This document shows positions 83 through 10,772 of a stretch of 39,172 nt of DNA, piece by piece; the stretch's first letter is position 1; every line of letters starts with the position of its first letter. This DNA is from a bacterium HR15 (GTDB taxonomy: Bacteria > Armatimonadota > Fimbriimonadia > Fimbriimonadales > GBS-DC), in the NCBI GenBank assembly GCA_002898555.1, contig BEHR01000031.1, positions 1 through 39,172 of the forward strand, given 5' to 3'. Below the pieces are notes generated by a model, which saw only the letters and a program-made list of their open reading frames with translations, made no database searches and was not told where the DNA came from. Position numbers and translations under genes: made by a program.

Positions 83-132
83 GCTTCGGCGTTTGGCGCG
101 GGCGATTTTGGAAGAATTGGGGTGCGAGTGGT

Positions 133-138
133 TATAAT
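133..138 (+). promoter_or_regulatory. Probable -10 box for the Cys-Thr repeat operon
   Basis: A perfect TATAAT lies about 100 nt upstream of the first gene. A weak TTGGAA sits about 19 nt upstream as a possible -35. No other good promoter is visible before the five overlapping genes that follow, so this may drive the whole unit. Confidence 0.5.
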
Positions 139-235
139 TTTCGCGGCTGGGTGGCATGTTAATATTAGGAGGCGGAAATGGCGGTGGTGCGCTGCCCCGC
201 CTGCCAACAGACCAAAACGATGGAGGAGGATGGTG

Positions 236-1174
236 ATGAGGCGACGACACAGTGGCTGGCTGAATGGACTGGCTGTGATGGCTGGGGCTTTGGCGTGTTG
301 GAGCGTGTGCTGGGCAGAAGCAGACCCGATGGCGCTCTATCGGCACATTGCCACGCTCAGCGCAAACGGAATGAGGGAAGGCATAGTCGATGCAAGCCTG
401 CATACTTTCCGAGAGAGCAAGCCGTGGGTACACCGAGCTATGTTAGAGGAACAAACAATCGCAAATTGTACGGGCTTCATGTGTACTTTGTTTGGTTGCA
501 CAGACGGCGCCGAATGCACCAACTACAAAGAGTGTACCGATGGAAGCTATTGCACCATGGATAACTGCACCCGTTCAGAGTGTACTTATGAGGAGGTTTG
601 CACTTCTGGAGATCAATGTACGGGGAATGGACAACACCACTGTACTGAGGGTAAGTCCTGCACGGGTGGCGGTGTTGATTCTTATTGTACTAAGGGAGCC
701 GATTGTACTGGGGGCAGGTCTTGCACCCATGATAAGGCATGTACCAGCTCGCCTGGCTGCACCGCAGGGCTGCACTGTACCGAGGGACAAAATTGTACCT
801 ACGGGGACGCATGCACCGAATCTGCAGGATGTACAGGTGGGTATGATCCTGGTACTGGGATGGGCTGTACCACAAGTCAACGGTGCACCAACGGGCAGCG
901 ATGTACAGAGGGACACAACTGTACCCTTCAGGCATGCAGTGTACGAGGACAGTGTACGATGGGACCGTCTTGTAGCAAGGGGCACAACTGCACTGTGGCT
1001 GTAAATTGCAGCGCACGCAGTGTGAGCGGATGTAGTGTTGGAAGTGGTTCTGCTAATTGCTGGAAGCCAGTACTGTTGAAAGATGGAGGGGTACAACTTC
1101 TCTCGCTCGCTGCTGTGGGGACTTTGGTCTTGACGATCCTTGCTTCTGGGAGATATGGCGATGCGAATGATTAG
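236..1174 (+). CDS. Secreted Cys-Thr six-residue repeat protein, paralogue 1
   Basis: Unknown function. The ATG at 236 is chosen because GGAGGAGG ends 6 nt before it; the product is 312 residues. It opens with a Sec signal peptide (three Arg, a hydrophobic core, likely cleavage after CWA). A short region shared with the next gene follows (ALYRHIATLSANGMR). About 200 residues then hold 32 cysteines, 31 of them followed by Thr or Ser, mostly exactly six residues apart, as in CTEGQNCTYGDACT. A C-terminal hydrophobic helix suggests membrane or sorting-signal anchoring. In beetle antifreeze proteins (Tenebrio type), Cys pairs six apart form disulfides across each 12-residue beta-solenoid coil and the Thr side chains make a flat face; this spacing is the same. 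The fold is inference. It overlaps the next gene by 14 nt. A better-spaced ATG at 178 reads another frame and was rejected. Confidence 0.85.
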   Translation: MRRRHSGWLNGLAVMAGALACWSVCWAEADPMALYRHIATLSANGMREGIVDASLHTFRESKPWVHRAMLEEQTIANCTGFMCTLFGCTDGAECTNYKECTDGSYCTMDNCTRSECTYEEVCTSGDQCTGNGQHHCTEGKSCTGGGVDSYCTKGADCTGGRSCTHDKACTSSPGCTAGLHCTEGQNCTYGDACTESAGCTGGYDPGTGMGCTTSQRCTNGQRCTEGHNCTLQACSVRGQCTMGPSCSKGHNCTVAVNCSARSVSGCSVGSGSANCWKPVLLKDGGVQLLSLAAVGTLVLTILASGRYGDAND

Positions 1175-2342
1175 TCTGATGATCCTCGTTTCCAGTTGTA
1201 TGGCATCGGCGATCGCTCACGCGCAGGAAGCCAATCCCAATGCGCTCTATCAACATATTGCCAGTTTGAGCGCCAATGGGATGAGAGCAGGTGTTTACGA
1301 GGTCCATGGAGACTCACCTCCCCCTGTTGAGACGCCACTTGCCGAGATGCAAACTTACGCGACGACTCCTTGCAACGATGACACAACGGTGCGCTTTTGC
1401 ACCAGTGCGCGCTCCAGCCGATGCACGAATGTCGACAACTGCACTTCTGACAAAACTTGCACCAGCGGGCGCTGTACCTCCTATGAAATGTGCACCACCA
1501 GTTGGCATGGCCCTTGCACAGGCGTCAAAGGATGCACGATCGGCGTTCAGTGCACTGCAGGGAGCGGATGCACGCTCTCCGACGCATGCACCTCCACCAG
1601 TGGTTGTACTCGAAGCAAAGAGTGTACTCAGGGGACAGGTTGCACTGCCGGTTCCAACTGTACTCGAGGCAAGATATGCACTTCCGCTTCAAGCTGTACC
1701 GACAGCGCTAACTGTACCTCGGCTGTTGGCAAAACGGGATGCACTACAGGCAAGGCATGTACCGCGGGGCAAGGCTGCTCGGGCGGTACAAGGTGCACCT
1801 CCGCTAAGTCCTGCACTGTAGGCGGAGCATGCACTGTAGGAGAATTTTGCACCGCTGCAAAAAACTGTTCGGCAGGAAACCCGTGCACCAATGCGGCTGA
1901 ATGCACAGCAGGTCGCAACTGTTCCGCCATAAACCCTGATTGCACAACAGGCAAATCGTGTAGCACTGGGGAAAATTGCACAAGGGGTACATTATGCAGC
2001 AGTAGCAAGTCTTGTACACAGGTCAATCAGTGTACTGTTCGTGGGGCATGCACCGCAAACAATCTCTGTACCGCAGGCAATTCGTGCACGCAGGAACAGT
2101 ACTGCACGCGCTCAAAAGCCTGCACGACTAAGAACTGTACCATAACACCCATTTGTACCCTGTCAAAGCAGTGTACAACAAAAAATTGCACGAAAAACAA
2201 AGACTGCTCAATACATAAAAACTGTTCTCGGAAAAGGTCGCCTAAAAGCAAAACTGGTTTACCGAATATGACTCTGGAGTTAGCCTTTACGAATCTCCTA
2301 TTCAGCAGTGTCCTTTTGGCGTTGTGGAGGAATAAACAATGA
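1161..2342 (+). CDS. Secreted Cys-Thr six-residue repeat protein, paralogue 2
   Basis: A 393-residue paralogue of the preceding gene, unknown function. ATG codons at 1155, 1161 and 1167 are all possible; 1161 has GGGAG 8 nt upstream. The signal peptide ends near AHAQ. The paralogue-specific stretch ALYQHIASLSANGMR matches its neighbour. Residues from roughly 80 to 350 are an almost unbroken run of 46 Cys-Thr or Cys-Ser pairs at six-residue spacing, about 23 predicted 12-residue coils; spacer residues are small or polar (Ala, Gly, Ser, Lys). The tail has a basic linker, a hydrophobic helix and ends WRNKQ, the layout of a C-terminal sorting or tail-anchor signal. The paralogues differ mainly in repeat number, as expected for solenoids that grow by unequal recombination. 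The stop overlaps the next start (ATGA). Confidence 0.85.
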   Translation: MRMISLMILVSSCMASAIAHAQEANPNALYQHIASLSANGMRAGVYEVHGDSPPPVETPLAEMQTYATTPCNDDTTVRFCTSARSSRCTNVDNCTSDKTCTSGRCTSYEMCTTSWHGPCTGVKGCTIGVQCTAGSGCTLSDACTSTSGCTRSKECTQGTGCTAGSNCTRGKICTSASSCTDSANCTSAVGKTGCTTGKACTAGQGCSGGTRCTSAKSCTVGGACTVGEFCTAAKNCSAGNPCTNAAECTAGRNCSAINPDCTTGKSCSTGENCTRGTLCSSSKSCTQVNQCTVRGACTANNLCTAGNSCTQEQYCTRSKACTTKNCTITPICTLSKQCTTKNCTKNKDCSIHKNCSRKRSPKSKTGLPNMTLELAFTNLLFSSVLLALWRNKQ

Positions 2343-4222
2343 AGCAAGTATTGTGTTTAATATTGATAATAGGATATATAGAAATTGTGTCATCTCAAGA
2401 GATTGCGTTCCCTGCTGGATGGTATACTTACGAGCAGATTGCGCAGCAACTCTCGACCCAGGGGCGTGTTGTGCGCTGTGATCCCGCATTGAAACAAGCG
2501 GTTGTGTTATTAGCTATTAAGCCACGCTCTTGGGAACAGGTATGCTCGCTGCTCGAGCGAAGCCTTGACCTCAAAATCGAACGCGTCAACCCTGATGCCT
2601 CAGAACAGTGGATCCTAAAACTTGATCCCCAAAAAGCACGGCGTGAGAAGGTACTACGCGAGCGTTTTGCCAATATTCTGGCAGGCTCTGGTTGGTCTTC
2701 GGGTCCCGACCTTGCTGCATTACACGCTATTCCTCTGCCCGTTCTCGTTCGAGAGACCCCCCGCCTGACCCAGATGGCTCGTGAGCTCCAACAACAGTTT
2801 AGAACAGCTGCGGGAGATACGGTCCCAAGCGACTCGCAGGGAATCCTAACAACACTTACGGAAACTCTTTCTACCTATTCGATGCCCGATTTTTCACGAG
2901 AGATCGAAGAGGCGGTCGCTTCGCAAATTGATAGTCCAGATGAGGTATTCCGTCATCGCTTTCGCCTCCCCCCTGAGTGGAGTGGTAGCCGAGAGCTAAA
3001 GCGTAAAATAGTGCTGTTGGATTTGGCACTCAAAGTAGATTACTTTAGACACATACTCTTGGCAAGGTACATCGCTCAAGCAAGCGAGCCACAACGCAGA
3101 ATTCACGATGCGGTCATTTCTGGGGAGCATTATTGGATAGTCCCTTTGCAGATATCGACAGATATGATTACATGGTTAGTTGGGAGTAAATACTTTAGCG
3201 AATCACGAAAGACCCTCACTGGCTCTGCGACCTCAAACCCGATTGGTGTCGTGGTTTATTGCTGGGATGGAACACCTGGCTATGTAGGATTCGAAGTGTC
3301 AACAGCCTTAGTTTATGACAACTGGTGGGTTAACCTTGAACATGAGAAGCTGTGGATAAAAACAGCGAATATCGAAGAAATATTTCGTGACATCGATGAA
3401 ACTCTGTATCGGGAATACAGGGAAGCCTCGCAAAAGCAAGACGCCCTGCTTTCAAGCCCAGTTGTGCAACGCTCGGTTGCTACCCGTTTGAGGAGGCAAA
3501 ACCTTTATACATGGCTGTATCAATGGGTGCGTCATTTGGATCAGGAAGTCATTATTCCCCTCTATCCGCATCGTGCGCGTTGTGAGGACGCCCCTAATTT
3601 GCAGAAGCTTCTGGCTTCTCTTCCCGATCGGGGCATATGGCGAGTGGAGCAAATGGAGGGCGTCTGGATCTGGCGCAACTGGCTCGCTTTCCTGGATCGC
3701 GCTCCCGACCTGCCGCTGGCAGCACTCCTGCAACTGGCTCGCTCCCCACGCACCCCCAACGACTGGCGACGGTTCGCACGCCAAGTATCCCCGCGCCAAG
3801 CACGCTGGATGCCCTTGATGCCCAACTTCCCCAACAGTGAGAGCCTGTTCGGGGTTGAAGAACATCTCGGCTCCCTCCCCCTTGTAGCAAAGCAGTGGCT
3901 GCTGTTTCAAGTGTTGGACGCTGTCCCCCAGTGGGAGAGCCGTTTGAAGCGAACAGACACTTTGACGATAGCGTGGCAGGAGCTGGCGCCTGCGAAAAGG
4001 CGGGCGTGGGTGCAGAGGCTGCTTCAGGTGGGGACGGAGGGATTACCGGAAGCGTTGCATCCGTGGGTGTGGCTGGGGCGTGCGGATGTACTGGTGCAAT
4101 CCCTGGAGCAAGCAGGTGTGGTGCGCGTGTCTCGGGTGCGTGGGGGCGTGTCGGTGGTGCTTCAGGTGGGCGAGCAGCAGTGGCTTGGCTGTGTCATCCC
4201 TCTCAAGCTCGGTCAGGATTAG
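2339..4222 (+). CDS. Exported protein of unknown function
   Basis: A 627-residue protein I do not recognise. GGAGG lies 8 nt before the ATG, which overlaps the previous stop in ATGA, so translation is probably coupled. Residues 1-19 form a signal peptide ending near VSSQ. Residues about 25-90 (tyeqiaqqL, then a two-strand pattern, then swEqvcslLersL) resemble the small STN-type domain found at the N termini of secretins and TonB receptors; this is a weak, fold-level impression. The rest is mixed and Trp-rich with no hydrophobic segment, so the protein is likely periplasmic. The 3' third of the gene is GC-richer than its first half. Its place between the repeat proteins and the membrane pair suggests a shared job at the cell envelope. 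Confidence 0.75.
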   Translation: MKQVLCLILIIGYIEIVSSQEIAFPAGWYTYEQIAQQLSTQGRVVRCDPALKQAVVLLAIKPRSWEQVCSLLERSLDLKIERVNPDASEQWILKLDPQKARREKVLRERFANILAGSGWSSGPDLAALHAIPLPVLVRETPRLTQMARELQQQFRTAAGDTVPSDSQGILTTLTETLSTYSMPDFSREIEEAVASQIDSPDEVFRHRFRLPPEWSGSRELKRKIVLLDLALKVDYFRHILLARYIAQASEPQRRIHDAVISGEHYWIVPLQISTDMITWLVGSKYFSESRKTLTGSATSNPIGVVVYCWDGTPGYVGFEVSTALVYDNWWVNLEHEKLWIKTANIEEIFRDIDETLYREYREASQKQDALLSSPVVQRSVATRLRRQNLYTWLYQWVRHLDQEVIIPLYPHRARCEDAPNLQKLLASLPDRGIWRVEQMEGVWIWRNWLAFLDRAPDLPLAALLQLARSPRTPNDWRRFARQVSPRQARWMPLMPNFPNSESLFGVEEHLGSLPLVAKQWLLFQVLDAVPQWESRLKRTDTLTIAWQELAPAKRRAWVQRLLQVGTEGLPEALHPWVWLGRADVLVQSLEQAGVVRVSRVRGGVSVVLQVGEQQWLGCVIPLKLGQD

Positions 4223-4228
4223 CCGTCG

Positions 4229-6547
4229 ATGAAGATGGAGGTGCAGTGGTTGCAAAGGTTGGTTGTGGCCCTGAGCGCGGGGAGCTGGATTGTCTTGGCA
4301 TCAATTGAACACACCGCGATGTACTGGTTGGGCAGTCTGCTTGCCGTGATAGTGATGGGAGTTCACGGCTCCAACCGATCGGCGAAAGCGTTTTTGATCG
4401 CATTATGTGCTTTCGGATGGCTTCTTTTCACACGCACGCAGAGCGGGTTCTTGATGGCTGGTGCGCTCTTGCTCGCCTCTTTCAGTAGCCGTCTTAGCCA
4501 TATCGCGGCTCATGTTGCGCAGACCTTTGCTCTGACAGCGGTCGGAATGCTCCTCTATGAGATAGGGCTCATCAGCCCAGAGGTGAATGCCCTGAGCTGG
4601 AAAGTCACCCACTGGTTGACTCAGATGACTGGAGAACCTGGAGTCTTGGGTGCTGCTCAAAGCCGTCTCTTGCTGGTTTTACCGCCCATCTTATATGGGC
4701 TGATGTATGTCGGATTATTCTCCATCCGCGGCGCGGCGTTGCTTATGCTTCTTATAATCAGTGCCGCCACCGCGCTGCTCACCCAGCTTGGGTTCTGGTA
4801 TGGCTGGATGCTCCTTTTGGCGGTGCTTATGGGGTCGGTTTCGTCACGAAGCTGCTCCCCGTCCAAACTGCGCATTGGTCTTACTTCCGTGATAGTTGCA
4901 GGGGTAGTGGTGGTGAACGGCGTGTGGCTTCGGGGCGCATGGCAACAAGTTTCTCCTATTCGGGTTCGTATCCTGGAAGGAGGCTTGAAGACCTTATCGC
5001 TACCGCCTCCAGAGCCGATTCGTGCCCCCCAAGATGCGCAATTTGGAAATCTGTTGCAGGTGCTACGCCTCTACGGTTTTGAAGTCTACCCCGTAGCGGA
5101 GCCGATGTTAGAACAGGTTCTGCCCCAAACAGAGGTGTTGGTCGTCATCAACCCGACCCATGAGTTGTCTGCCCGTATGCAAAATGCCGTAGAAAGGTGG
5201 GTGCGCTCAGGGGGTGCGCTGCTGGTTCTGGGAGACCATACGGACATAGCGGGGATTATGGCACCCTTGAACCGCCTGATTCACTTTACAGAGATCCGCT
5301 TTCGGTTTGACAGCGCGATCCCCCAAGACCGTTTCTGGCGCTGGAAAAATTGCTTGCGTGGGGAGTGGCATCCGATGTTTTACGGGCGCACAAATGCGGA
5401 CTTCGGGATTAGTGTAGGCGCTTCGCTGGAGATAGGTTGGCGTGCTCAACCGTTAGTGACAGGCGAACACGCTTTTTCCGACTGGGGGCGTGCATGGTAC
5501 GGGCTTTCGCGATTAGGCGATATGACCTACAACGCGGGGCAGGAACGACTGGGGGGACTGGTGCTGGTAGCTGAACAACGCTGTGGGAAAGGAGTCGTGC
5601 AAGTGTGGGGCGATACCTCAGGATTTCAGGACAATAGCCTCACGGCCAATCATCACTATGTGGCGCAATTGGTGGCTACCCTTGCCCAACGACGAACCCC
5701 TACTGAGGCACGACTACTCATAGCCACCGTCACGCTGCTGGCAGCAACAACGATCGTGGTCCTCTTATGGGGGCATCCTTTTACTGGCGTAATTGCATTG
5801 ATGGTTCTCGTCGCCAGTGTTCAAGGTACAGGATGGCTTGTTCAGAGGTTCGCATCTTCGGCGGTAAGGATACAGCAATCGGACTTCGCACTGCTCGATC
5901 AAAGTCACGGGGTACTTTACCCCCAAGAACCCCATGAGAAGGGTTTAAATACCTTCTGTGAGACGGCTCTCCGCGCGGGTATGCCTCTGCTATCCTTCAA
6001 TGACTTCGCGTTTGGAATACAGCTGAAACCGCGCTGGTGGATTATTCACGCACCACTCGTCCCATACACACCCCAGGAAGCTGCTCGTCTGGAACAGTAT
6101 GTGCGTGCCGGAGGCAATTTGATGGTGGTTGCTGGATATCCGCAAGGACAGAACATAAAGCACCTTCTGCAAGCTTTCGGGATGGAGGTTTCGTCGACGC
6201 CCGTGGGTGCAGCACACAACGCACGAATCGGGATTGCTTCCGTGCGTCTTCAAGTGCTCCATAATCACATGGCTGCGGTGTCGGAACAGGAACCGACTAA
6301 AACACCTGCTTATGACGCCGATGTTAGCTTCAAAGAGAGTTACGCCCTGCGAGGCGACCCCCAAACAAAGCCTTTAGTGCGGTGCTGGGGGCATGTGATT
6401 GCCCAGTATAAGCGTTTGGGTGCAGGCATGGTAGTCCTAATTGGGGATAACCGCTTCATCCTGGACGAGAATTTGGGGCAGCGGGAGGAGCGCAATGAAC
6501 CAACCATTCGGCTTCTGCTGGCAATTATGGCGGAACAACTCCCATAG
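4229..6547 (+). CDS. Polytopic membrane protein with paired GDHT-type soluble domains, paralogue A
   Basis: A 772-residue protein of unknown function. The ATG at 4229 lies 6 nt after the previous stop but has no clear ribosome site; a TTG at 4250 sits 7 nt after GGAGGT and could be the true start. About seven hydrophobic segments fill residues 1-240. A soluble domain follows (about 245-490) with a Rossmann-like alternation and VRSGGALLVLGDHTDIAG (Asp 336, His 337). Two more membrane segments (about 490-545) and a second similar domain (VRAGGNLMVVAG) come last. The pattern of a GG-x-L-hydrophobic strand after an amphipathic helix is typical of glutamine-amidotransferase-like or DUF4350-like domains; no nucleophilic Cys is evident. 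The following gene is a paralogue and overlaps it by 53 nt. Confidence 0.75.
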   Translation: MKMEVQWLQRLVVALSAGSWIVLASIEHTAMYWLGSLLAVIVMGVHGSNRSAKAFLIALCAFGWLLFTRTQSGFLMAGALLLASFSSRLSHIAAHVAQTFALTAVGMLLYEIGLISPEVNALSWKVTHWLTQMTGEPGVLGAAQSRLLLVLPPILYGLMYVGLFSIRGAALLMLLIISAATALLTQLGFWYGWMLLLAVLMGSVSSRSCSPSKLRIGLTSVIVAGVVVVNGVWLRGAWQQVSPIRVRILEGGLKTLSLPPPEPIRAPQDAQFGNLLQVLRLYGFEVYPVAEPMLEQVLPQTEVLVVINPTHELSARMQNAVERWVRSGGALLVLGDHTDIAGIMAPLNRLIHFTEIRFRFDSAIPQDRFWRWKNCLRGEWHPMFYGRTNADFGISVGASLEIGWRAQPLVTGEHAFSDWGRAWYGLSRLGDMTYNAGQERLGGLVLVAEQRCGKGVVQVWGDTSGFQDNSLTANHHYVAQLVATLAQRRTPTEARLLIATVTLLAATTIVVLLWGHPFTGVIALMVLVASVQGTGWLVQRFASSAVRIQQSDFALLDQSHGVLYPQEPHEKGLNTFCETALRAGMPLLSFNDFAFGIQLKPRWWIIHAPLVPYTPQEAARLEQYVRAGGNLMVVAGYPQGQNIKHLLQAFGMEVSSTPVGAAHNARIGIASVRLQVLHNHMAAVSEQEPTKTPAYDADVSFKESYALRGDPQTKPLVRCWGHVIAQYKRLGAGMVVLIGDNRFILDENLGQREERNEPTIRLLLAIMAEQLP
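4235..4270 (+). repeat. 36-bp dispersed repeat, copy 2
   Basis: Near-copy of positions 47-82, here forming the first codons (or the ribosome-binding region, if translation starts at the TTG at 4250) of the large membrane protein gene. Similarity stops abruptly after the shared TTGGTTG-GG. Confidence 0.55.
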
Positions 6548-8957
6548 GCTTTACCTTTTCGCTTGTGTTTATGTGGGAGCCCTCTTGACCCTATGGCTCA
6601 CGCCGCGTACGGTTTTAGGCGAGGGCTACCTTCCGCGAGCAGGATGGCAGTGGGTGCTCATGATTTGGCTGCTGCTGCCGCTTTTGGTTATGAACAATCG
6701 TTCGCCCATCCACGCACACGAAACAAAGTGGGCTGTTCTTGCCATAATCGGACTTATTTGGTCACCCACTTTGTCTATAAAAATCGGTTTACTTCTCTTA
6801 ACAGTTGCAGGCGTGCTGGCTTGGTCTTCTTGGCGCGGAGCCCAAGAGCTGGCAATTCGCTATCTTGAAATGGCGGGTCTCTGGATAGGCTTGATGTTCG
6901 GTATAAACATATATAACCATATTGCCGCGCGTCTGGACGGCATACCTTGGATCGGGTATGGCATCGCGCCGCTCCTCACCCTCTTGGGGCTACCGAATTG
7001 GGTGCAGGGCAATCAGGTGTTCGTGCATTATGAAGGCTTTACTTATCCTATGCTGCTCTCTTTAGATAAGTTTGGTGGAGCGTTTCCCTGGTTACTTGGG
7101 ATAGGTATTTTAGTGAGTGGCTACCAGAGGCGAATCCCCGTACCCTTGCTCGTCAGCGCCCTTTTATGGATCGGCTTCACGAGTATCGCCTATGCGCTCT
7201 TTATAACCACAGAATGGGTAGTTCAAGGGAACCAGTTACTCTGGTGGGACGAAACTTTGCTGGGTGGATTTTACGGTCTGGCAACAATCCCCGTCGCGTG
7301 GCTATTGCCAGCATCCCCCGTACCCAATCCGTCCACTCTGAAGTTGACCTCTCGGCAGTCACACGCTTGCACAGTCGCCTTGATCTTGGCAATATTTCTG
7401 ATAGTCACAGGTTGGCTCTGGGTGGATCCGGGTGTCCGCAAAGCAGGTACCATCCTCATAGATGAGTACTATAGTGATTGGGAATGGAGCGATGTGACTT
7501 TGAATACGCAAAGGTACGGAGTTCAAACAGTTTATAATTACTATTGTATGGTGGAGTTTTTCAAGCATTACTTCGCCCAAGTGGAACGCAACAACGAGCC
7601 GTTGAGTTATGAGAGACTGCGCTCCTATTCCGTGGTGATTCTCAAGACACCTACCCAGCCCTACCCCCCATCCGTGCGTGAAGCGTTACGGCGATATGTG
7701 GAAGAAGGGGGAAGCCTGTGGCTCATCGGAGACCATACCAATATCTTCGGAATGAATAATTATCTCAACACTGTGTTAGCACCGTGGAAGCTACGCTTAG
7801 AAGCGGACGCGGTGATTGACCCCGAGACGAATCGGCAACTCTATGCCCCCACCGCCATTGCTCATCCTGTGGTTCGCTCACTCCCCGTTTTTCTGTTTTA
7901 TACAGGGTGCTCGGTTCAAGCGCCCCTCGATTGGGGTACTTACGAGGTGATCTTATCTCCCCGCATGCTTCGCGATAAGCCTGACCTTGCCCAGAATACC
8001 TTCTTTGGCGATTTTGCACCCAGCCTTGCCGAGAGTGTTTGCCCGACAATCCAAGCGGTTGTGAAATACGCTGGCAAAGGGCGTGTGGGTATATGGTCGG
8101 ACAGCACATTGTTTTCGAATTTTGCGATTACTCTACCTGGCAAAATGGAGTTAGCCGTTGGCTTCCTGGACTTTCTGAATCGTCAAAATAGGTTTCCCCA
8201 GCTGCGCCTTATGTCTGTCGGCGCAGGCTGTTTACTTGCTCTCATTGGTTTTAGGGGGTTACGAACAGCCCATCACCTGGCCATTGTTGCTGTGTGGAGT
8301 GGCATTTTGGCAGGGACTGTATTCACTACATTTTGTTATTCCCAATTCTATCCTGCGCTTCAGCTGCATACACCCTTTGAAAAGATAGGCTTTCTTGAAG
8401 CGGAACCCACAGACCACCTACCCATCTTGAGACCCATCGATGACCCCTATCCCAACAGTTATCTTACCGCCTTCGTGGCGGCTTTGCGAGCAGGTAAATA
8501 TGCCGAGACCTGCTTCAAGATGTCCCAGGTCATGTCTTATCCCAGAGTGGTTGTCATACACGGACATCAAGTCATTGACTGGAAAACATTATCCGATTTC
8601 GTCCATGCAGGCAGGAAGCTCATTTTACTGGATGGTGGGGCGACGCCTGAAGCACTCGTGCAGGCAAGCCAGGTGTTCGGAATTCGCTATGTGCCGATGC
8701 CAGGTAAGACAGTTTTGAATTTGCAGGATGCCTCGATCCCGGTCGAGATAGCTGGCTATTTTCAATCAGGCATCCCCCTTTTGGTTGATTCCGAAAGACG
8801 CGCGCTTTTGATTGCCCACCAATTCGGACAGGGTAAAGTCTATCTAAGTACCACAGAAGCGCTTTTTTCGGACATGAGTTTAGGTGAGCCTTCTGATATC
8901 CCAAATGCAGCACAGTTTGCACTGCTAACGATATTATTTCAACTCTACGGGGATTGA
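6495..8957 (+). CDS. Polytopic membrane protein with paired GDHT-type soluble domains, paralogue B
   Basis: An 820-residue protein of unknown function, paralogous in layout to the preceding gene. The ATG at 6495 follows GGGAGGAG by a few bases and lies inside the previous gene (53-nt overlap), so translation is probably coupled. About nine hydrophobic segments occupy residues 1-320. A soluble domain contains VEEGGSLWLIGDHTNIFG (Asp 413, His 414), the motif shared with paralogue A, followed by an HPV segment and AGKGRVGIWSDSTLF. Two membrane helices and a second domain (IDWKTLSDFVHAGRKLILLDGG) close the protein. The shared invariant Asp-His-Thr in both paralogues hints at a functional site. 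It is the last gene of the unit; no strong terminator follows. Confidence 0.75.
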   Translation: MNQPFGFCWQLWRNNSHRLYLFACVYVGALLTLWLTPRTVLGEGYLPRAGWQWVLMIWLLLPLLVMNNRSPIHAHETKWAVLAIIGLIWSPTLSIKIGLLLLTVAGVLAWSSWRGAQELAIRYLEMAGLWIGLMFGINIYNHIAARLDGIPWIGYGIAPLLTLLGLPNWVQGNQVFVHYEGFTYPMLLSLDKFGGAFPWLLGIGILVSGYQRRIPVPLLVSALLWIGFTSIAYALFITTEWVVQGNQLLWWDETLLGGFYGLATIPVAWLLPASPVPNPSTLKLTSRQSHACTVALILAIFLIVTGWLWVDPGVRKAGTILIDEYYSDWEWSDVTLNTQRYGVQTVYNYYCMVEFFKHYFAQVERNNEPLSYERLRSYSVVILKTPTQPYPPSVREALRRYVEEGGSLWLIGDHTNIFGMNNYLNTVLAPWKLRLEADAVIDPETNRQLYAPTAIAHPVVRSLPVFLFYTGCSVQAPLDWGTYEVILSPRMLRDKPDLAQNTFFGDFAPSLAESVCPTIQAVVKYAGKGRVGIWSDSTLFSNFAITLPGKMELAVGFLDFLNRQNRFPQLRLMSVGAGCLLALIGFRGLRTAHHLAIVAVWSGILAGTVFTTFCYSQFYPALQLHTPFEKIGFLEAEPTDHLPILRPIDDPYPNSYLTAFVAALRAGKYAETCFKMSQVMSYPRVVVIHGHQVIDWKTLSDFVHAGRKLILLDGGATPEALVQASQVFGIRYVPMPGKTVLNLQDASIPVEIAGYFQSGIPLLVDSERRALLIAHQFGQGKVYLSTTEALFSDMSLGEPSDIPNAAQFALLTILFQLYGD

Positions 8958-9008
8958 TAAGGATATCAATGATTTCCCCTATCGAGGAGCTTGAAGCATC
9001 GCCTGCGC

Positions 9009-9051: not shown

Positions 9052-9084
9052 AATTGCTTGGACGATTTTCAAATAGCGGAGCGG

Positions 9085-9114
9085 TTGCATTGGTTGGCGA
9101 AGGCATGCCATAAT
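9085..9114 (+). promoter_or_regulatory. Promoter of the metal-transport genes
   Basis: TTGCAT (9085-9090) and CATAAT (9109-9114) are separated by 18 nt. The expected transcription start falls at or within a base or two of the ATG at 9121, so the message is probably leaderless. Confidence 0.55.
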
Positions 9115-9126
9115 TTAAGCATGCCT
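9101..9126. promoter_or_regulatory. Candidate operator palindrome over the -10 box and start codon
   Basis: AGGCATGC (9101-9108) and GCATGCCT (9119-9126) form a perfect 8-bp inverted repeat around CATAATTTAA. It covers the -10 box and the ATG, where a repressor would block transcription. Since the genes are for metal uptake, a metal-responsive repressor (DtxR/MntR or Fur/Zur class) is a reasonable guess, but the sequence is not one of the consensus sites I know. Confidence 0.5.
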
Positions 9127-10038
9127 AAATTTCGAGGGGAGCAGGCGGGGTTAACCGTTGCGCTGATGACCCTGGTGGGCTGCACGGCAAGACAGTTATC
9201 CGGCAAGCCCTTGGTGGTTTGCACCACGGGCATGGTGGCCGATTTGGCAAAGCGCGTGGGCGAGCCAGAGATTGCTGTCTATGCGTTGATGGGACCCGGC
9301 ACCGATCCCCACCTCTACAAGCCGACCGAAGGCGACCTACAACACTTGGCGAAGGCGAGGTTGGTGCTGTATAACGGGCTTCACCTGGAAGGCAAGATGA
9401 GCCTGATTCTGGAGCGGCTCGCGCGTGTGCGCCCCACGATCGCCGTCACCCAGGCTATTCCCGCCGAATTGCTGCGCTACCCTCCTGAAGCCGAAGGCAA
9501 ACCCGATCCGCATGTGTGGCACGATGTTTCCCTCTGGGTATATGCATTGCAGGGTGTGACCGATGCCCTTTGCGAACAGTTCCCACAGCATGAATCGCGT
9601 TTCCGCGCTCGCAGCACGGCCTATCGGGAGGAGCTCACGACGCTCCACGAATGGTGCAAAGCACAAATTGCTCAGATACCACCCCTACAGCGTGTGTTGA
9701 TTACCTCTCACGACGCTTTCAGCTATTTTGGACGCGCTTATGGATTAGAAGTGCGCAGCCTACAAGGCATCAGCACCCTCTCGGAATATGGGTTGCGCGA
9801 CCTGCAGGCATTAGCGGAGTTTATTGTGCAGCGGCATATTAAAGCGATTTTTGCGGAGACGAGTATTTCGCCCCGTGCGCTACAGGCAGTGATGATGAGC
9901 TGCCGACAGCGCGGGCACATCGTGAGGCTGGGCGGCACGCTCTACTCGGATGCACTCGGGCCGCCCGACAGCGATGCCGCCACCTATGTCGGCATGATTC
10001 GGCACAATGTGCGCACCATCGTGAAGGCCCTGAGGTGA
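9121..10038 (+). CDS. Zinc/manganese ABC transporter substrate-binding lipoprotein
   Basis: A cluster A-I (TroA/ZnuA/MntC) binding protein of 305 residues that delivers Zn2+ or Mn2+ to an ABC importer. The ATG at 9121 is preferred because the segment from MPKF through LVGC is a lipoprotein signal (lipobox LVGC), whereas the longer frame from 9058 puts a hydrophilic extension before it. The family's metal ligand motifs are visible: GTDPHLYKPTEGD (His 1), PDPHVWHD (His 2), SHDAFSYFGRAYGL, FAETSISPR (Glu) and LYSDALGP (Asp). The charged His-rich loop of many ZnuA proteins is missing, so zinc and manganese cannot be told apart. No ribosome site is visible. The ATPase gene follows 5 nt later; no permease gene is adjacent. 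Confidence 0.9.
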   Translation: MPKFRGEQAGLTVALMTLVGCTARQLSGKPLVVCTTGMVADLAKRVGEPEIAVYALMGPGTDPHLYKPTEGDLQHLAKARLVLYNGLHLEGKMSLILERLARVRPTIAVTQAIPAELLRYPPEAEGKPDPHVWHDVSLWVYALQGVTDALCEQFPQHESRFRARSTAYREELTTLHEWCKAQIAQIPPLQRVLITSHDAFSYFGRAYGLEVRSLQGISTLSEYGLRDLQALAEFIVQRHIKAIFAETSISPRALQAVMMSCRQRGHIVRLGGTLYSDALGPPDSDAATYVGMIRHNVRTIVKALR

Positions 10039-10043
10039 GAACG

Positions 10044-10772
10044 ATGCCCTTAGAGATACGCAACCTAACGGTGGTTTACAACGGCAAGCCGGCAATCCAC
10101 AACATCACCCTTACGGTGCGGGAGGGTGTGCTTACTGGGATGGTCGGACCGAATGGTGCGGGCAAAAGCACCTTGCTGAAAGCGATTTTGGGGCTGGTTC
10201 CCAGGGCAACAGGCGAAGTGTGGCTCAATGGACGCCCCATGGACAAGCCGCGTGGCGAAATTGCCTATGTGCCGCAGCGGGGGAGCGTCGAGTGGGACTT
10301 CCCCGTGAATGTGCTGGATGTGGTGCTGATGGGCACTTACGCGCGTCTGCCTATCGGGCGGCGCCCCGGCAGAGCAGAGCGTGAGTGGGCGATGGAGTGC
10401 TTGCGACAGGTTGAGCTGGAGGAGTTATGGCGACGGCAAATCGGGGAGCTGTCGGGCGGTCAACAGCAGCGGGTCTTTCTGGCGCGCGCACTGGCACAGG
10501 ATGCACCCGTCTACCTGCTGGATGAGCCGCTTGCAGGCGTGGATGCTGCCACGGAAGGGGTGATTATGGAGCAGCTGCACCGCTTGCGCGATCGGGGACG
10601 AATCGTGTTGATGGTGCATCATGACCTGCAAACTGTGCGCGATTGCTTCGACGAGGTCGCGCTGTTGAACGAGCATCTCATCGCGGTGGGCAGGGTAGAT
10701 GCCGTGATGACCCCTGAAAACTTACAACGCACTTACGGGGGCAAACTGGTCTTTCTGCAGGATATGGATTAG
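10044..10772 (+). CDS. ABC transporter ATP-binding protein, metal type
   Basis: A 242-residue ATPase of the ZnuC/MntB class that would energise metal import with the preceding binding protein. The ATG at 10044 follows a GGTGAG ribosome site that overlaps the upstream stop. Walker A is GPNGAGKST (about residues 35-43), the Q-loop is in AYVPQRGSVEWDFPV, the signature is LSGGQQQR, Walker B is VYLLDEPLAGVD and the switch His is in MVHHDL. QRGSVEWDFPV is characteristic of manganese/zinc transporter ATPases. The permease expected in the operon is absent; the next gene is convergent Hsp20. Confidence 0.9.
   Translation: MPLEIRNLTVVYNGKPAIHNITLTVREGVLTGMVGPNGAGKSTLLKAILGLVPRATGEVWLNGRPMDKPRGEIAYVPQRGSVEWDFPVNVLDVVLMGTYARLPIGRRPGRAEREWAMECLRQVELEELWRRQIGELSGGQQQRVFLARALAQDAPVYLLDEPLAGVDAATEGVIMEQLHRLRDRGRIVLMVHHDLQTVRDCFDEVALLNEHLIAVGRVDAVMTPENLQRTYGGKLVFLQDMD

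Follow-up and report, generated by a model that had tools for sequence, protein, structure and literature searches.

A conserved pair of GIFT-domain membrane proteins adjoining exported Cys-repeat and SPLF proteins in bacteria and archaea

The PEP-CTERM/exosortase, archaeosortase, rhombosortase and myxosortase systems sort proteins by means of C-terminal tags, with exosortases relying on a catalytic set of conserved membrane Cys, Arg and His residues. For archaea, a 2015 analysis (PMC5898192) predicts a secretion or membrane-remodelling complex from a DUF4350 (arCOG01314) set that includes a vWA protein along with a MoxR-type ATPase. GIFT domains, according to a review (PMC7226087), are proposed to bind sugar. 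Here we analyzed a window of 39,172 nt, the whole stretch of contig BEHR01000031.1 from the armatimonadotal bacterium HR15 (GCA_002898555.1), in which a five-gene cluster shares single features with each of these systems.

A compact cluster with two Cys-Thr repeat proteins

The initial annotation described five tightly packed genes, neighbors overlapping by 14, 4 or 53 nt or, in one case, separated by 6 nt, and re-derivation from open reading frames (ORFs) returned the same layout: all five genes are real, lie on the same (+) strand and are compactly arranged. CT1 (236–1174, 312 aa) encodes a signal peptide, the motif DPMALYRHIATLSANGM, repeats of about six residues and a hydrophobic C-terminal segment. 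It overlaps by 14 nt with CT2 (1161–2342, 393 aa), an exported Cys-Thr repeat protein with 48 Cys and a hydrophobic helix at the C-terminus, which in turn overlaps by 4 nt with the gene for an STN-like exported protein (2339–4222, 627 aa). After a 6-nt gap follow MEM1 (4229–6547, 772 aa) and, overlapping it by 53 nt, MEM2 (6495–8957, 820 aa), both with an N-terminal membrane domain and then two extracytoplasmic GIFT/DUF4350-type domains. The cluster start had to be moved, as no codon of the CT1 frame begins at position 133; the likely start is the ATG at 236, preceded by GGAGG.

The window begins at the contig end, and DNA 5′ of it lies outside the contig. Between CT1 and the contig end, at 178–235, an ATG with a GGAGG at suitable distance opens the short frame MAVVRCPACQQTKTMEEDG, which is possibly a leader. 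Part of this region recurs at positions 6683–6723 of a locus from another genus (L057, genome G004; blastn, 93% over 43 columns), ~2 kb upstream of an orphan CT gene. That gene (L057 8521–8813) shows 84% DNA identity to window positions 88–382; the shared stretch runs from the upstream region through the signal peptide to the N-terminal motif. The remainder is divergent, and the likeness may reflect recent exchange or a remnant. A 33-nt direct repeat with 94% identity occurs at 48–80, upstream of CT1, and at 4236–4268, at the start of MEM1; a dispersed element was ruled out, as the genome has just these two copies. Directly downstream of the cluster, 9058–10772 encode a ZnuA-type binding protein and an ABC ATPase, and these ZnuA/ZnuC genes were rejected as members of the unit because they were not seen at the corresponding loci of three relatives (G039, G061 and G096). 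Scanning the window for promoters and terminators gave counts near the shuffled means.

The repeats announced for CT1 and CT2 were confirmed by counting. CT1 contains 34 Cys, 31 of them as C[T/S], and 21 of its 33 Cys spacings are exactly 6, against a maximum of 11 in 2000 residue shuffles; in CT2, Thr or Ser follows 46 of the Cys, and a spacing of exactly 6 occurs 38 times out of 47, with a shuffle maximum of 10 (2000 residue shuffles). Because these counts lie far above the shuffle maxima, the repeats are beyond chance. Homologues of CT1 were detected in G039 and in Phycisphaerales CP070678. For both proteins, Pfam returned nothing at E ≤ 1 and NCBIfam only incidental matches far below cut-off, the one for CT1 at E 0.075; a left-handed hexapeptide β-helix was dismissed as spurious, its basis being the incidental LpxD match (E 0.075) and one match to a sugar-nucleotide transferase (by eye) in G002. 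The repeats would probably form a disulphide-laddered β-solenoid. For the surface ‘rods’ proposed initially, AlphaFold2 offered no support, its model of CT2 reaching a pLDDT of 36.5. Among solved structures, CT2 had one notable match, the Tenebrio antifreeze protein 1ezg (phmmer E 0.048, strongly composition-biased). We dropped an antifreeze role, since this sole match is biased and AlphaFold2 gave no fold support.

Distribution of the pair and its exported neighbors

In a sample of 101 genomes, comprising the window genome and 100 relatives, CT proteins gave matches in four, one of which (G002), by eye a sugar-nucleotide transferase, was judged spurious. MEM2 matched in five, one match (G100) being short and partial. 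Armatimonadetes bacterium 55-13 (G039), which belongs to a different family of the same order, carries CT, CT, STN-like, MEM1 and MEM2 in an order identical to the window, with ~35% identity in MEM1 and MEM2. Two members of the window’s order (G061 and G096) have four genes, encoding one Cys-rich exported protein, a protein in the STN position, MEM1 and MEM2; BLAST did not match the STN-position protein of G096 to the STN-like protein of the window. A repeat gene without the membrane pair, a case that speaks against the unit, was seen once, in G004 (CT gene present, no MEM2 match). The dedicated unit proposed at the outset is supported for the repeat proteins and the membrane pair, which occur together in G039 (five genes) and in G061 and G096 (four genes), with the pair beside Cys-repeat or SPLF proteins in other phyla, but not for the STN-like gene. 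The family of the latter gave matches at E ≤ 1e-3 in 21 of the 101 genomes, mostly over residues 14–114 and 340–570 and mostly in genomes without the other cluster genes. Because it otherwise occurs without them, the gene is an Armatimonadota-specific add-on and not a fixed part of the unit; its product would act as a lineage-specific periplasmic helper. In this exported protein, Pfam STN had no match at E ≤ 1, so the STN label goes back to inspection by eye only.

Searches with a MEM2 alignment, which are blind to neighboring genes, recovered MEM2 at 1e-20 in 7 of 291 genomes of the window’s phylum (two of these only partial). Counts were 13 of 294 genomes in the phylum of a Phycisphaerales match, 4 of 345 in that of a Desulfamplus match, 5 of 288 in that of a Verrucomicrobia match and, for the phylum of a Thermoplasmatota match, 13 of 145. 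No match to MEM2 was found in a plasmid collection. The pair is known from Armatimonadota, Planctomycetota, Verrucomicrobiota, Desulfobacterota and Thermoplasmatota. MEM1 lies directly 5′ of MEM2 on the same strand at 41 of 42 loci with both genes, most commonly with a 4-nt overlap, the sole exception (L148) having the reverse gene order; this count left out single-gene and tiny-contig loci (for example, L081, L086, L087, L090, L122, L124, L134, L147 and L149). MEM1–MEM2 is one conserved gene unit, and it is far older than the five-gene operon. All five families co-occur, in the order of the window, in G039; the general module is narrower and consists of MEM1 followed by MEM2.

Neighbors were examined with a Cys-tandem rule, applied to every ORF up to 5 kb from the pair: an ORF counted if it had 150 aa or more and 10 or more Cys inside a segment of 120 or 200 residues, with no fewer than 60% of the spacings deviating by at most one from the mode. 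Such ORFs were present at 23 of 39 bacterial loci, none of 12 archaeal loci and 1 of 40 controls. The controls combined 21 loci from Armatimonadota relatives with 19 short exosortase loci, and the only hit among them came from G004 and its orphan CT gene. An earlier, looser rule gave 22 of 51 loci versus 3 of 40 controls. After reading, the bacterial count was 22 of 39, with L120 dropped as unverified and L116 and L123 short. The loci are not independent because some share genomes (L082/L114, L088/L111, L085/L130, L126/L128 and L123/L124). Repeat units vary from ~5 to 14 residues, with the Cys per unit kept: CTxxxx in the window, TCxGxx at L114, TxCPxxE-like units at L115, L119, L128, L130 and L132, DPxxxxC (~11 residues) at L125 and L127, TMNPMDxxC (~13 residues) at L083 and L084 and, closing an RHS-like protein, CxGSxC at L135. 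Pfam and NCBIfam yielded no family that names these Cys-repeat proteins; all matches were either low in score or of composition type, as with a repeat model on L084.

Among the 31 bacterial loci that carry MEM1 as well as MEM2, nine have no Cys-tandem neighbor by our reading. A giant RHS-like gene (by eye) takes the place of the Cys-tandem partner at L088, L111, L117 and L120, and a TPR protein with ISPLY does so at L112; L113, L131, L133 and L148 have no recognized partner, two of them with <2 kb of flank on either side. Individual loci offer further observations. At L135, from a verrucomicrobial genome, the giant RHS-like protein (3997–9000) has a C-terminal tandem with Cys every 4–6 residues and thereby joins the RHS and Cys-repeat partner types. 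Two period-7 Cys-tandem proteins at L128 (5702–7099 and 7872–10574) have C-terminal repeats that look dockerin-like by eye. At L082 (4981–7390, Phycisphaerales), the pair is directly preceded by a sigma-factor-like gene (by eye) and a gene for a FecR-domain protein, for which surface signaling control is possible. At the verrucomicrobial L133, an O-antigen-ligase-like gene (2695–4014) just upstream of MEM1 hints at glycans.

Several bacterial clients share SP[LVI][FY] soon after the signal peptide, in the forms DSPVF (L082), DSPLF (L084 and L085), GSPLF/ASPLF (L114), NSPIF (L125) and DSPIF (L128). The motif rule selected 6 of 39 loci in bacteria and 10 of 12 in archaea, against 1 of 40 controls, with one of the ten archaeal hits (L145) looking like an unrelated cytoplasmic protein. 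The motif is degenerate in the window, and the L082 protein, with DSPVFSHIAVMSETGM, connects the SPLF-type forms with DPMALYRHIATLSANGM of the window. At six Thermoplasmatota loci (L136, L138, L139, L141, L142 and L143), one to three genes for SPLF proteins of ~220 aa come after the pair; elsewhere in Thermoplasmatota, these are partial (L144) or more distant. The pair is not limited to Cys-repeat proteins, since its archaeal neighbors have SPLF but no Cys repeats.

A profile built from ten archaeal SPLF proteins was run on the same 145 Thermoplasmatota genomes as MEM2 and matched 12 at 1e-5. Each of these belongs to the 13 genomes with MEM2, and the remaining one (G1319), without an SPLF match, has a fragmented assembly. 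Within Thermoplasmatota, SPLF proteins are limited to genomes with MEM2, a co-occurrence in one phylum that common descent explains in part and may largely explain. SPLF proteins are encoded at up to 20 loci per genome and combine a conserved N-terminus with a variable C-terminus. In 27 of them from two genomes, selected by SPLFxxR, which itself fixes those positions, Arg/Lys stands at +9 in all 27, Ala at +10 in 24 and Tyr at +22 in 24; column conservation drops from 0.79 N-terminally to 0.3–0.4 further along. Such a pattern is that of a shared tag on diverse proteins. Altogether, exported Cys-tandem-repeat or SPLF proteins adjoin the pair in many lineages. Another exported protein of ~350 aa, with invariant NTHAG and MATC, stands beside archaeal pairs (L136, L138, L139, L141, L142, L143 and L144). 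Pfam assigned no family above cut-off to the one member scanned; we take these motifs to resemble clan CD peptidases and regard the protein as a candidate processing enzyme confined to archaea.

Domains of MEM1 and MEM2 and the function of the pair

Pfam places DUF4350 in both proteins (MEM1, 50.7 bits; MEM2, 38.8 bits; curated cut-off, 30.4) and ABC_transp_aux in MEM1 (44.9 bits; cut-off, 34.7). Annotated as membrane paralogues, the two are similar in their GIFT parts (E 5e-8), but their membrane domains gave no credible alignment to each other, so paralogy holds for the soluble part only. AlphaFold2 modeling of MEM2 from a 10-sequence alignment reached pTM 0.72 and mean pLDDT 70.8, with residues 1–111 poor. 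In fold searches, which here cover the soluble part and are not informative on the membrane domain, the first GIFT domain aligned with IFT52 (Z 20.6), OST48/Wbp1 (Z 15.6–17.6) and domains of sugar-active enzymes; the model, thus, shows an IFT52/OST48 fold for this domain. Conserved motifs are GDHT, FDSA and GDTS in 40 MEM1 sequences, and invariant or near-invariant polar residues in MEM2 comprise DExHS, GDHT, C472 and DSTxFSNF. The conserved polar residues in the GIFT domains of both proteins suggest a putative working site. For NCBIfam GldG, the window MEM1 scored 10.2 bits and the best other sequence 19.5 bits, against a cut-off of 389.85.

We consider a functional link between the pair and its clients very likely. 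Mere co-location of orphan membrane proteins beside low-complexity genes, with no shared function, would accommodate pairs without a recognizable client and the solitary CT gene of G004, but it is highly improbable given Cys-tandem neighbors at 23 of 39 loci versus 1 of 40 controls, the archaeal SPLF/MEM2 co-occurrence and gene overlaps conserved across families. As to the nature of the link, we lean toward MEM1–MEM2 being an undescribed membrane machine that matures or sorts surface proteins, and maturation or sorting seems somewhat better placed than plain secretion. MEM1 and MEM2 would together form a membrane machine for Sec-exported clients, which in the window genome would be CT1 and CT2. 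Recognition would occur through a short stretch just behind the signal peptide, SPLF-like in general and divergent in the window (DPMALYRHIATLSANGM). The GIFT domains may hold a glycan, a lipid-linked glycan or the client, and the complex would then process, modify or anchor the client at the surface. Points against this reading are the CT gene of G004 without a MEM2 match, the nine bacterial loci that lack a Cys-tandem neighbor, the restriction of the archaeal co-occurrence to one phylum and the degenerate motif in the window. A broader version, to which we attach only tentative weight, sees a many-to-one sorting machine of bacteria and archaea with an N-terminal SPLF-type tag, which in the window lineage became dedicated to Cys-Thr repeat proteins and elsewhere serves varied Cys-tandem clients.

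Alternatives take up parts of the same data. The pair might be oligosaccharyltransferase-like, with GIFT acting as OST48/Wbp1 and the membrane domains transferring a lipid-linked glycan to the Thr/Ser-rich client repeats. The alignment of the MEM2 GIFT domain with OST48/Wbp1 and sugar-active enzyme domains, the sugar binding proposed in PMC7226087, Thr/Ser adjoining nearly every Cys in CT1 and CT2 and the O-antigen-ligase-like gene at L133 all point this way. Yet no catalytic glycosyltransferase domain was found in MEM1 or MEM2, archaeal SPLF clients lack Thr-Cys repeats and the fold similarity concerns the GIFT part and not the membrane domain, which leaves this reading rather unlikely. No GT-C family matched. 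Exosortase-like cleavage or anchoring, with the MEM2 membrane domain as a distant exosortase relative in which an acidic residue replaces the catalytic Cys, is unlikely. In hhalign comparisons, this domain met exosortases in a similar register each time (P 0.003–0.016, score 24.7–29.6), above the best score of 21.3 among 42 other membrane proteins, which as single sequences form a lenient control, and some clients end with a hydrophobic segment and a basic tail. The probabilities, however, are 3–10%, and the comparison is noisy: aligning MEM1 to MEM2 yielded a P of similar size from no more than 14 columns. Moreover, several clients lack a C-terminal anchor, and Pfam exosortase PF09721 had no match in window MEM1 or MEM2 at E ≤ 1 or in three other pair proteins scanned at E ≤ 0.5. 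The membrane domain has no Cys or His column at 75% in 43 sequences, and its Arg, conserved in 39 of the 43, is Ala in the window MEM2 and is also missing from at least two relatives. With no conserved Cys and Arg replaced by Ala in the window, we do not call MEM2 an exosortase. Comparing one exosortase query by sequence to solved structures revealed no exosortase structure. Canonical exosortases exist separately from the pair in seven of ten genomes tested, among them the window genome (G000:C7:1144–1857).

A third alternative, distinctly improbable, treats the Cys repeats as passengers of a secretion or membrane-remodelling complex of the type that PMC5898192 predicts for archaeal arCOG01314. 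The DUF4350 domain is common to both, but the MoxR-type ATPase and vWA protein of that set were absent among 20 neighbors scanned with Pfam, and the topology differs in being multi-helix with two GIFT domains and an obligate pair. If our favored reading of a maturing or sorting machine is true, bacteria and archaea would share a machine whose clients are tagged behind the signal peptide, a new way to build cell surfaces, and many Cys-repeat and SPLF proteins that now lack annotation would become approachable.

Comparison with described systems

The initial annotation knew of no described system with this composition, and open-access literature, searched by titles and abstracts with subscription papers outside the scope, likewise contained no description of the pair, the SPLF proteins or the Cys-repeat partners. 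Known relatives share single features with the locus but not, as far as could be shown, the defining ones. The Tenebrio antifreeze protein resembles the CT proteins in having Cys about every six residues with Thr adjoining, but the match is weak and composition-biased, it brings no fold evidence and we do not propose ice binding. OST48/Wbp1 and IFT52 have the same GIFT fold as MEM2 (Z 15.6–20.6), which here is duplicated and fused to a multi-helix membrane domain; unlike in oligosaccharyltransferase, no STT3-type catalytic partner was seen nearby. The arCOG01314/DUF4350 complex has a DUF4350/GldG-like extracytoplasmic domain and surface-protein neighbors in common with the pair, which differs in that each protein combines a multi-helix N-terminal part with two GIFT domains and that two such proteins stand in tandem, with no MoxR ATPase or vWA protein among the 20 scanned neighbors. 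Exosortase, archaeosortase, rhombosortase and myxosortase systems offer the likeness of one membrane machine with many clients bearing a short tag, found through tag–machine co-occurrence. In contrast to these, the putative tag here lies just behind the signal peptide and not at the C-terminus, and the proposed machine is a pair of GIFT proteins without the exosortase Cys. We, therefore, label MEM1–MEM2 and its clients as new at the system level, with precedents for the tag-and-machine logic.
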